Assembly: GCA_017305195.1 (NCBI GenBank)
Contig: JAFKMU010000035.1
Location: 1-64,000 of the forward strand
DNA length: 64,000 nucleotides
DNA from: Verrucomicrobiota bacterium
GTDB lineage: Bacteria; Verrucomicrobiota; Verrucomicrobiia; Chthoniobacterales; Terrimicrobiaceae
Direction: 5' to 3'
Of this stretch, positions 7,517 to 11,296 are shown piece by piece. The first letter of the stretch is position 1. Each line of letters opens with the position of its first letter. The notes beneath the pieces were generated by a model that worked only from the letters and a program-made list of their open reading frames with translations, made no database searches and had not been told where the DNA came from. The translations under genes were made by a program, and so were the position numbers.

Positions 7517-8248
7517 ATGGGTCGCCAATGGCTTCACGCTAAACGTGCCGTCGCCTCGCTGAAAAAGTCGCAGGCCACCGGAAAACTCGTCAAAGAAATC
7601 ATGGTCGCTGCGAAGGTCGGAGGCGCTGATCCCGAGGGAAACGCCCGTCTGGCTACCGCCGTGGAGAAGGCCCGCAAGGAGTCCGTCTCCCGCGACGTCA
7701 TCGAGCGCGCCATCAAGAAGGGCGCGGGTGTCGGCGACGAAAAGCTCGTGATGGAGCACATCCTTTTCGAGGGCTATGCCCCGCACAAGGTGCCTGTCAT
7801 CGTCGAGGTCTACACCGACAACAACAACCGCACCGCCCCGGAAATTCGCGTCCTTTTCAAGAAGGGCCAGCTCGGCACCTCCGGCAGCAACAAGTTCCTC
7901 TTCGACCACGTCGGTCTGGTCGAGGCCTACCATTCCGACACCAGCGCGGACATCGAAACCGCCGCCATCGAGGCCGGAGCCAATGACTTTGAGCCGCTGA
8001 CCCACCAGCAGAACGACGACATTCCCGCCGACAAGCTCGGCGCGCGCTTCATCACCGACCGCACCGCCACCGGTGCCGCGACCAAGTGGCTCACCGAAAA
8101 CGGCTGGACCGTCGTGACCAGCGAACTCGGCCACATCGCCAAGCAATTCCCGACCCTGACCGACGACCAGGCCGCCGAAGTCGGCGAGTTCCTCCAGACC
8201 CTCGACGACCACGACGACGTCCACCGCGTCTGGGCCGCAGTGAAGTAG
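7517..8248 (+). CDS. yebC: YebC/PmpR (TACO1) family protein
   Basis: The 243-residue protein has the three-domain TACO1/YebC fold. Members have been described as DNA-binding regulators and, more recently, as ribosome-associated factors relieving stalling. The N-terminus GRQWLHAKRAVASLKKS corresponds to the family's GHSKWxNIKHRK segment. The middle (EGYAPHKVPVIVEVYTDNNN) is the strongest family signature. The start at 7517 is chosen because it gives the standard MGRQW beginning and has gagag upstream. Its 3' end is followed by repeat copy C and the GxxExxY gene. Confidence 0.93.
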   Translation: MGRQWLHAKRAVASLKKSQATGKLVKEIMVAAKVGGADPEGNARLATAVEKARKESVSRDVIERAIKKGAGVGDEKLVMEHILFEGYAPHKVPVIVEVYTDNNNRTAPEIRVLFKKGQLGTSGSNKFLFDHVGLVEAYHSDTSADIETAAIEAGANDFEPLTHQQNDDIPADKLGARFITDRTATGAATKWLTENGWTVVTSELGHIAKQFPTLTDDQAAEVGEFLQTLDDHDDVHRVWAAVK

Positions 8249-8258
8249 CGGAAGACAG

Positions 8259-8292
8259 ATTTTTACAGAAGGAAGCGAAGGAAACGAAGGGG
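8259..8292 (+). repeat. 9-nt-period dispersed repeat, copy C (left flank of GxxExxY)
   Basis: The element begins atttttacagaagga and continues with agcgaagga and aacgaaggg, three 9-nt units in tandem. It starts 11 nt after the yebC stop, in sense orientation, and ends 14 nt before the GTG of the GxxExxY gene. Its purine-rich end supplies Shine-Dalgarno-like sequence for that start. It is inverted relative to copies D and E on the other side of the gene. Confidence 0.8.
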
Positions 8293-8305
8293 AAGGCAGA
8301 CGGGA

Positions 8306-8710
8306 GTGCATCCTTTGTTTTTGAAAGCCGACCGGCTCAGTCACGAGGTGATCGGGGCGGCGATTGAGGTTCACCGCGAGACGGGAAGCGGATTGCTGGA
8401 GAGCATCTATGAAAGATGCCTCGTGCATGAGCTTTCCATTCGCGGAATCTCCGCCGTCCAGCAGGCTCCCGTCGTCATCGAGTACAAGGGGCTGAAATTT
8501 GAGGAAACCCTCCGCCTCGACTTGCTGGTGGAGGGCTGCCTTCTGGTCGAACTTAAATCCGTTCAGGACGTCTTACCCGTCCACAAAGCCCAGCTCTTCA
8601 GCTACATGAAGCTGCTCAACGTCCCTCTCGGCCTCCTGATCAACTTCCACGAACCCAAGCTCACCAGCGGCATCCACCGCATGATGCTCCCGGGTTCCTC
8701 AGGGAAATAA
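8306..8710 (+). CDS. GxxExxY family protein, predicted PD-(D/E)XK nuclease
   Basis: The 134-residue protein carries the family motif G29-L-L-E32-S-I-Y35. The core fits RecB/Cas4-like nucleases: E21 in the first helix, D72 in LRLDLLVEG, the E82-L-K84 pair, and Q96-x3-Y100. All catalytic positions expected of an active enzyme are present, though I know of no demonstrated activity for the family. The start is GTG, with purine-rich sequence from repeat C just upstream. The gene lies between repeat C and the inverted copies D and E, separating yebC from ffh. No partner gene is adjacent. Confidence 0.85.
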   Translation: MHPLFLKADRLSHEVIGAAIEVHRETGSGLLESIYERCLVHELSIRGISAVQQAPVVIEYKGLKFEETLRLDLLVEGCLLVELKSVQDVLPVHKAQLFSYMKLLNVPLGLLINFHEPKLTSGIHRMMLPGSSGK

Positions 8711-8745
8711 ATCGACCGAGGATCTATTCTTTTCTGAGTCCTCTC

Positions 8746-8821
8746 ACGGCGAGCCGTCGAGCCACGACGCCCCAAAACCCTTTGCTTCCTTCGTTTCCTT
8801 CTGTTCGTTCCTGCCTTGGTT
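8746..8821 (-). repeat. Dispersed repeat copy D with upstream mini-hairpin (first tandem unit)
   Basis: The 9-nt-period core is at 8778-8804 (ccctttgcttcc... ending ttctgt), inverted relative to copy C with three mismatches over 27 nt. It is preceded by the mini-palindrome acggcgagccgt (8746-8757) and followed by a conserved tail ttcctgccttggtt. The whole unit recurs about 88 nt downstream as copy E. Confidence 0.75.
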
Positions 8822-8832
8822 TGAGTCCCGAT

Positions 8833-8910
8833 ACGGCGTTCCGTCATCTGCGAGGCGTGCATAATTCCTTTGCTTCCTTCGTTTCCTTCTGTTCAGTCCT
8901 GTCTTGAATT
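8833..8910 (-). repeat. Dispersed repeat copy E (second tandem unit, in the ffh leader)
   Basis: The core at 8867-8892 is identical to copy D over 26 nt. The preceding acggcgttccgt (8833-8844) and the following tcagtcctgtcttga also match D with few changes, making D and E a tandem duplication of about 88 nt. Copy E ends 18 nt before the ffh start codon and so lies in the ffh 5' leader. Confidence 0.75.
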
Positions 8911-10242
8911 ATGTTTTCCCGTCTTTCCGACAAATTGCAGGACGTCTTCAAGGACCTCCGCGGACATGGGCGCATCAGTGAGAAAAACATCACCGATGCG
9001 TTGCGCGATGTCCGGATGGCCCTGCTCGACGCCGACGTCCACTTCCAGGTCGCCAAGGACTTCATCGCCCGGGTCAAGGACAAGGCGATGGGCGAGGAGG
9101 TGCTGCGCAGCGTCACTCCCGGCCAGCAGATCGTCAAAATCTTCCAGGATGAGCTCACCGCCCTCCTCGGCGGCGATGCCGCTCCGCTGAATCTCACCAA
9201 GCCCGCCCGCATCCTCGTGGTCGGCCTCAACGGTGCGGGCAAAACGACCTCTTCCGCCAAGCTCGCCCGGCTCCTGAAATCCCAGGGCCGCGCTCCGCTG
9301 CTCATCGCCTGCGACTTGCACCGCCCTGCCGCCATTGCCCAGCTCGCCACCTTGGGCGAACAGGTTGGCGTCCCGGTTTATCAGCCCCAGGCGGGGGAAA
9401 CCGACGTGCTCAAGGTCGGTCGCGACGCCGTCGCATGGTGCAACCAGACCCCGGGAGACGTGCAGATTTACGATACCGCCGGCCGCCAGGATCTCGACGA
9501 GCCTCTGATTGAGGAATTGCGTCGCCTCAAGGAATTCCTTCAGCCTCAGGAGATTTTGATTGTTTGCGATGCCGCTACCGGCCAGCAGGCGGTCAACGTG
9601 GCCGAAAAGTTTCACGCCGCCCTCGGCCTCACCGGCATCATCCTGACCAAGCTCGATGGCGACGCTCGCGGCGGCGCCGCGCTCTCGTTGCGCGAGGTCA
9701 CCAAGCAGCCGATCAAGTTCGCCGGTGTCGGGGAGAAGATCGAGCAATTCGAGCAGTTTTACCCCGACCGCCTTGCCGGGCGCATCCTCGGCATGGGCGA
9801 CGTGGTCAGCCTCGTGGAGAAGGCCGCCGAGGTCATCAACGAGGACGATGCGCGCCGGATGGAGGAGAAACTTCGCAAGGCGACCTTCGACCTTGAGGAC
9901 TTCCTTCAGCAGTTCCGGATGCTCAAACGAATGGGCCCCCTGCAAAATGTCCTTGGCATGCTGCCGGGAATGGCTAATTTAAAAGGTTCCTCGATTGACG
10001 AAGGTCAGTTGAAACGGGTGGAGGCGATTATTCTCTCCATGACACCGCAGGAGCGAACGCGTCCGGACATCCTGAACGCACGACGCCGCCAGCGGGTCGC
10101 CCGTGGCAGCGGCACCACCGTGACCGAGGTAAACAACCTCATCCTGCGTTTCACCCAGATGCGCAAGATGATGAAAAATATGGGCCAGATGAAAAAACTG
10201 ATGGCCCAGGCCCGGAAGGGCGGAATGCTGGGAATGAACTAA
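8911..10242 (+). CDS. ffh: Signal recognition particle protein Ffh
   Basis: The 443-residue SRP54 GTPase binds signal sequences on nascent inner-membrane proteins and docks with FtsY. The N domain is followed by a G domain with P-loop VGLNGAGKTT, DTAGR and TKLDGDARGG. The Met-rich M domain occupies the last 130 residues, including MKNMGQMKKLMAQ. Length and domain order are normal. It leads the ffh-rpsP-khpA cluster found in many bacteria. Its leader is occupied by repeat copy E rather than an obvious Shine-Dalgarno. Confidence 0.97.
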   Translation: MFSRLSDKLQDVFKDLRGHGRISEKNITDALRDVRMALLDADVHFQVAKDFIARVKDKAMGEEVLRSVTPGQQIVKIFQDELTALLGGDAAPLNLTKPARILVVGLNGAGKTTSSAKLARLLKSQGRAPLLIACDLHRPAAIAQLATLGEQVGVPVYQPQAGETDVLKVGRDAVAWCNQTPGDVQIYDTAGRQDLDEPLIEELRRLKEFLQPQEILIVCDAATGQQAVNVAEKFHAALGLTGIILTKLDGDARGGAALSLREVTKQPIKFAGVGEKIEQFEQFYPDRLAGRILGMGDVVSLVEKAAEVINEDDARRMEEKLRKATFDLEDFLQQFRMLKRMGPLQNVLGMLPGMANLKGSSIDEGQLKRVEAIILSMTPQERTRPDILNARRRQRVARGSGTTVTEVNNLILRFTQMRKMMKNMGQMKKLMAQARKGGMLGMN

Positions 10243-10957: not shown

Positions 10958-10985
10958 ACAGAAGGAAGCAAAGGAAACGAAGGGG
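10958..10985 (+). repeat. 9-nt-period dispersed repeat, copy F
   Basis: The copy consists of acagaagga, agcaaagga and aacgaagggg. It is in sense orientation 27 nt after the small lipoprotein stop. Immediately after it is the hairpin ggctgca-tg-tgcagcc. It belongs to the 418-nt gene-free stretch 10931-11348, in which I see only repeats. Confidence 0.75.
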
Positions 10986-11056
10986 GGCTGCATGTGCAGC
11001 CGTCCAGAGCCGAGACTTCCAGATACACTGAGAGATGGGGAACCAAGGCACTTCTT

Positions 11057-11084
11057 ACAGAAGGGCGCAAAGAACACAAAGGAG
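11057..11084 (+). repeat. 9-nt-period dispersed repeat, copy G
   Basis: The copy reads acagaaggg, cgcaaagaa, cacaaagg. Upstream, aaccaaggca (11041-11050) matches the reverse complement of the tail of copy D, so the conserved element extends beyond the 9-nt core. It has the same orientation as F. Confidence 0.65.
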
Positions 11085-11227
11085 AAGGCAAAATAGATTC
11101 TCCGACCATCAAGCCTTGGGAGAGGTGAAGTCCATTTCACGACGGGCGGCATTGGCACGTTGAAAAACAGCCACTGCGTAAGCGTCCTTGATGTGCAGTC
11201 GCCGCTTCGCCAGCACGCAATGCCAGA

Positions 11228-11296
11228 CCTTTGCGGTCTTTGCGACCTTCTGTGAAAGGCCTTCTGCCTTGTCCTTCGTTTCCTTTGCTTCGTTGG
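11228..11296 (-). repeat. Dispersed repeat copies H (11228-11253) and I (11267-11296)
   Basis: H reads cctttgcggtctttgcgaccttctgt, and I is a degenerate version around tccttcgtttcctttgc. Both are inverted relative to F and G and lie downstream of maf in its sense direction. Between G and H (11085-11227) there is no ORF, RNA or homology that I can support. Confidence 0.6.

Follow-up and report, generated by a model that had tools for sequence, protein, structure and literature searches.

A predicted RecB/Cas4-type nuclease of the GxxExxY family encoded between inverted short-period repeats: a candidate one-gene element resembling REP/RAYT

The window, a 64,000-nucleotide stretch of DNA from a Verrucomicrobiota bacterium, carries a small gene (8306-8710, forward strand) that begins with a GTG codon and encodes a GxxExxY protein of 134 residues, the domain being specified by nucleotides 8336-8683. 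The flanking host genes lie on the same strand, yebC upstream (7517-8248) and ffh downstream (8911-10242). These are the direct neighbours of the gene; neither cas1, cas2 nor a CRISPR array adjoined it. There is one GxxExxY gene in the genome from which the window was taken (G000, 5.11 Mb in 75 contigs).

Short repeats bound the gene on both sides. The left arm, repeat C (8259-8300, forward strand, ATTTTTACAGAAGGAAGCGAAGGAAACGAAGGGG...), contains a 27-nt core of three 9-nt units (8265-8291), while two right arms, repeat D (8778-8818, core 8778-8804) and repeat E (8866-8906, core 8866-8892), lie on the reverse strand. Repeats D and E form a direct pair (93% identity over 40 nt, 88 nt apart). 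Repeat C is inverted relative to D and E, as the sequence-only reading had proposed; the upstream ACAGAAGGAAGCGAAGGAAACGAAGGG and the downstream reverse complement ACAGAAGGAAACGAAGGAAGCAAAGGG differ at 3 of 27 nt, and the alignment of the inverted arms in the window scored 39, compared to 23 for the best of 100 shuffles. The Shine-Dalgarno function suggested for the purine-rich 3' end of C is plausible, in that its inner end holds GGGGAAGG (8289-8296, forward strand), which ends 9 nt before the GTG at 8306. The repeat was also correctly described as dispersed, since the pattern AAGGNNGCNAAGGNNNCNAAG had 37 exact matches in the 5.1 Mb genome and the reversed pattern had none. The description "purine-rich" with a 9-nt period is accurate at this locus but does not extend to the family, in which sequences are diverse and periods range from 8 to 10. 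Two related types, A (AAGGAAGCGAAGGAAACGAAG) and B (AAGGTCGCAAAGGACACAAAG), were found in the genome, often as inverted sets. At one locus (L032, G000:C57:31000-44500), composite arrays of types A and B, joined by a GCGAGACAGGCGAAGCC module, are present in many copies within a few kb.

Profile searches matched the gene product to PF13366 (E = 1e-38) and TIGR04256 (E = 2.9e-41), with scores above the curated cut-offs (132.7 bits vs 22 and 140.5 bits vs 35, respectively). PF13366 was the only match in the domain search, and the HUH Y1 transposase domain of the REP/RAYT system was not found. The protein has the GxxExxY signature and the D, ExK and QxxxY catalytic residues. In an alignment of 101 GxxExxY sequences, G29, E32, D72, K84 and N113 were invariant and Y35, E82, Q96 and Y100 were near-invariant, so that the active-site and signature residues originally picked out from the one sequence proved to be the conserved columns of the family. 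No cysteine was present among these invariant or near-invariant columns, and the catalytic site was intact in nearly all copies. The AlphaFold model (pLDDT 93) had as its best structural match Cas4 SSO0001 (4ic1, Z 9.0 over 100 residues; next match 7.9), which fits the presence of the RecB-type nuclease motifs D, ExK and QxxxY. When the Protein Data Bank was searched with a profile, the sole match was T7 endonuclease I, with an E value of about 1, and it was set aside. Judged by its modelled fold and its motifs, the GxxExxY protein is a predicted RecB/Cas4-type PD-(D/E)XK nuclease.

The inverted arms are a general feature of the family. A total of 80 GxxExxY loci was drawn from bacterial genomes that included Verrucomicrobia, Planctomycetes, Desulfo- and other proteobacteria, Cyanobacteria, Bacteroidetes, Chloroflexi, Acidobacteria, Chlamydiae and others, and 77 were scored by aligning the 220 nt upstream of the gene with the reverse complement of the 220 nt downstream. 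A score of at least 30, the threshold adopted, was obtained at 69 of the 77 loci, compared to 5 of 757 control positions taken from these loci. Among relatives retrieved by profile search, 77 of 86 loci scored at least 28. The density of the three-unit motif was 5.0 per kb up to 250 bp from the gene and 0.25 per kb farther out, a 20-fold enrichment, and the motif was predominantly oriented inward (158 vs 35). The statement in the original reading that such repeats accompany GxxExxY genes elsewhere was thus borne out. In the non-subscription literature searched, the association was not described.

The arms consist of three tandem units of 8-10 nt, the best period over 153 loci being 9 in 76, 8 in 39 and 10 in 18. 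The unit sequences include CACGGAG, CGCAGAT, ACAGGAT, ACAGAAT, CACTAAT, CACCAAG, ACGAAGG and others; the arms read ACC[AG]C..GAG or ACAGAAGG, and the GTAG/CGTC-tagged palindrome of REP was not found. The median span from outer edge to outer edge was 507 bp. The elements are tightly packed between genes, with a median of 7 nt from the upstream stop codon to the arm, and 44 of 75 lie between co-oriented genes. At several loci (L053, L164 and similar), the upstream gene has its stop codon within or at the outer end of the arm (TTGACC/TTAACC).

The class of repeat follows the clade of the protein. When repeat class was compared with protein identity over 150 loci, the fraction of pairs sharing a class was 4-9% where the proteins were less than 40% identical, rose to 65% at 60-70% identity and reached 100% above 85%. 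The closest protein from another genome (below 70% identity) shared the class in 100 of 138 cases, compared to a mean of 43.6 and a maximum of 64 in 1000 permutations of the labels. The permutation ignores the tree and neighbours may include orthologous insertions, which makes the strength of the correlation uncertain, not its existence. Since only 16 of 69 pairs of within-genome paralogs shared a class, the repeat tracks the protein clade rather than the host genome. On this comparison of sequences, the gene and its cognate repeat co-evolve, which lends indirect support to the original suggestion that the nuclease would act on the repeat.

The unit can be seen at a gene junction with an ATGA stop-start overlap. 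Four congeners (G003, G012, G014 and G015) carry the gene and both arms there as a cassette of ~455 bp, the same junction is uninterrupted in nine congeners, which have neither the gene nor a repeat, and one genome (G007) has a scar of about 40 nt. The cassette has the sequence CATGATC (7 nt) at either side, with CATGAAC as the left copy in two genomes, and neither host gene is disrupted as a result. Because nine independent precise deletions are unlikely, insertion is the simpler explanation at this site. That the gene and both repeats move as one unit, suspected from the window, is directly supported by the four genomes with both and the nine with neither; empty sites that keep the repeats had been named as the evidence that would count against it, and these nine were clean. 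Over all loci, direct repeats at the arm edges were in no excess over shuffles, and the possible 7-nt target duplication was seen at the one site only. A copy in G015 (L303, G015:C8:204300-205320), with a Y to H change in GxxExxY and other changes, is probably decaying.

At the yebC-ffh site, G000 and a sister species, G001, have the same cassette (90.8% nucleotide identity), the gene in G001 (L169) being frameshifted with both repeat arms intact. A third species, G002, has a different cassette in the same place; its GxxExxY gene is 67.9% identical to that of G000 in nucleotide sequence, whereas the flanking yebC and ffh genes are 95.1% and 94.5% identical, and the arms are of type A in G000 and type B in G002. 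Similarly, at the purL site, which is used in five species, the flanks are 93-96% identical and the cassettes 71-83%, so that both sites point to an exchange of cassettes. The purL and L205 sites could not be used as empty sites because the upstream gene or the content differs.

Gene-less copies of the resident repeat type, counted genome-wide by pattern searches, number dozens per genome. The GAG pattern had 35-45 copies in G003, G010, G012 and G016, with none for the reversed pattern; it is absent from the genus of the window, where the AAG type, with the reverse distribution, prevails. Many gene-less copies are short inverted pairs of 70-230 bp with the same TTGACC/TTCACC outer ends. Two sites lie in the window, one on the reverse strand (972-1100) composed of type B (972-1002) and type A (1070-1100) and conserved in position in G001 and G002, the other (10958-11294) an inverted set of A (10958-10985) and B (11057-11084) on the forward strand with B (11229-11259) and A (11272-11294) on the reverse strand. 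Gene-less sites in the genus are kept at orthologous places in 3 of 3 species, and the repeats there seem less diverged than the intervening DNA. In G045 (L292-L297), GAG-type inverted pairs enclose CAGAT- or AAG-type inverted pairs, an arrangement suggestive of the insertion of one element into another. A few gene-less copies suggested a palindromic target such as terminator loops, a possibility discarded when no symmetry was found beyond about 11 nt outside the arms.

A second family has the same architecture. Genes for four-helix-bundle proteins (TIGR02436, 23S IVP-like) in the same genomes have inverted arms with a 7-nt period at 26 of 30 loci, compared to 0 of 60 control positions, and the identity at a lag of 7 was 0.63. 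These loci (L250-L279 in relatives, G000:C46:25952 and C22:81549 in the genome of the window) have units such as GGAAGTC, TTTTCAG, TTGCAGA, CGAAAGT and others. At L051 and its orthologs L186 and L187 (G000:C15:72500-74000), GACTTCC/GGAAGTC repeats of 7-nt period lie beside a 9-nt-period site, so both repeat systems share one genome. The TIGR02436 proteins are not nucleases, and the flanked protein may therefore be a repeat-binding factor rather than a mobiliser; the common arm design thus lowers confidence in the mobilisation step and raises the interest of the class.

Our preferred interpretation, which we consider probable though well short of secure, is that the locus is a minimal one-gene element, mobile or formerly mobile, in which a GxxExxY nuclease is encoded between inverted arms made of its own recognition units, in the manner of REP/RAYT. 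Several protein units would bind the tandem 8-10-nt sites side by side on DNA and the nuclease would nick or cut at or near the arms; break, repair or strand exchange could then insert, replace or copy the cassette and spawn the gene-less inverted pairs. The logic of movement would be that thought to apply to RAYT transposases acting on REP sequences, with another enzyme. In the genus of the window the element is old: the gene-less repeats have stayed in position across species, and the single-copy gene is already broken in one sister species. Four observations count against the mobile-element interpretation, 1) the most similar within-genome pair in the genomes examined has only 67% protein identity, so that recent copying within a genome was not seen, 2) the arm edges show no general excess of target-site duplication, 3) the gene-less repeats are stable at orthologous sites in the genus, and 4) arms of this design also flank the TIGR02436 genes, so that the protein between them need not be the mobiliser. 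The lack of near-identical paralogs and the stability of the repeats show that movement within genomes is now rare. Carriage as a typical passenger of conjugative elements or phages was rejected, because GxxExxY is nearly absent from plasmids (8 of 72,556 records) and was found in no phage or viral contig.

Several other explanations were weighed. The repeats may themselves be the mobile or amplifying entity, driven by another enzyme or by replication slippage and repair, with the GxxExxY and four-helix-bundle proteins as passengers or as repeat-binding regulators evolving with the repeat. The inverted 7-nt-period architecture around TIGR02436 genes, which encode no nuclease, and the great excess of gene-less copies over genes are in keeping with this scheme, but it accounts poorly for a catalytic site intact in nearly all GxxExxY copies and for repeats tightly concentrated around the gene, and we regard it as rather unlikely. 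Slightly less credence is given to a homing-type cassette, whose nuclease would cut alleles lacking the cassette at a fixed chromosomal site, so that the cassette is copied in by repair and spreads between strains at one site and not within a genome. Homing would explain the use of the same sites in several species (three for yebC-ffh, five for purL) by cassettes far more diverged than their flanks, the missing near-identical paralogs and the clean empty alleles at the ATGA junction. However, homing does not predict inverted copies of the cognate repeat that are scattered without a gene and would be targets themselves, and the empty ATGA-junction site has no repeat to recognise.

An RNA role, in which the arms of the transcript would form a long stem to be cut in the way that RNase III cuts 23S rRNA intervening sequences, allowing the cassette to sit in operons, with the repeats kept for pairing, seems improbable. 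The arms could pair, and the tight gene junctions would suit such a role. Nevertheless, G-U pairs are not favoured over A-C among the mismatches between the arms (194 G/A vs 224 A/G; 83 vs 108), a stem does not need a short tandem period, and RecB/Cas4 folds are DNases. The missing wobble bias led us to reject an RNA stem as the selected form and indicates that recognition is probably at the DNA level; the initial suggestion that RNA could be the target of the nuclease is accordingly disfavoured. Coincidence, whether a common intergenic repeat that merely flanks GxxExxY or the codon periodicity of an upstream coding stretch, is barely credible. The upstream repeat does fall in an open frame at some loci (e.g. 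TTEDTESTEE), but the control positions, the motif enrichment near the gene, the inverted copy downstream and the empty sites without repeats all oppose it, and codon periodicity was dismissed on the periods of 8 or 10 (57 of 153 loci) and the non-coding downstream arm.

Among known systems, REP/RAYT (TnpA-REP, REPINs) is the nearest in organization, one gene flanked by an inverted pair of dispersed intergenic repeats with which it co-evolves; the RAYT gene evolves faster than its neighbours, and the presence of a gene type goes with the abundance of its cognate repeat (PMC2817692). GxxExxY loci share the inverted flanking repeats, the co-evolution, the faster-evolving gene and the match of resident type to repeat abundance. 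They differ in the enzyme, a predicted PD-(D/E)XK RecB/Cas4-type nuclease rather than an IS200/IS605-related HUH tyrosine transposase, in arms built of tandem 8-10-nt units rather than GTAG-tagged palindromes, and in the far greater number of sequence classes. Insertion sequences with MITEs likewise have terminal inverted repeats, gene-less short inverted copies and precise insertion, but GxxExxY loci lack a DDE or HUH transposase, a general target duplication and near-identical copies within a genome. Nucleases of the Cas4/RecB family have the closest fold (4ic1) and the D..ExK..QxxxY motifs in common with GxxExxY, which, unlike Cas4, has no conserved Fe-S cysteines and no adjacent cas genes and is bounded by its own repeats. 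The Rpn/PDDEXK_2 (Transposase_31) proteins, PD-(D/E)XK nucleases of another family, have been proposed to promote recombination; we know of no cognate short-period arms associated with them. The 23S rRNA intervening sequence is a one-gene element of about 430 bp that is removed from the RNA by RNase III (PMC4990558). Intervening sequences of this kind carry the S23/IVP four-helix protein (TIGR02436), the chromosomal genes of which also had inverted short-period arms in the present analysis, but with a period of 7 and a product that is not a nuclease and has no sequence relation to GxxExxY.

Most likely, then, the locus is a REP/RAYT-like element with an unrelated nuclease, and there is a real chance that it represents a new class of element. 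A broader proposal, which we advance tentatively and hold to be less than even in likelihood, is that the GxxExxY (period 9) and four-helix-bundle (period 7) cassettes form two branches of a hitherto undescribed class of one-gene elements that extends over much of the bacteria; such elements would be bounded by inverted short-period arrays read by the encoded protein and would move by a mechanism unlike that of any known transposase family. If the preferred interpretation is correct, a function would be assigned to GxxExxY, a widespread family of small bacterial genes annotated as uncharacterised, a very widespread and unnamed class of intergenic repeat such as ACCACAGAGGACACAGAG would be explained, and the REP/RAYT strategy would have arisen a second time, with a Cas4/RecB-like nuclease. 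Because there are many protein clades, each with its own repeat, the code by which the nuclease would recognise DNA can be tested directly, and GxxExxY proteins may be of use as small sequence-specific cutters.
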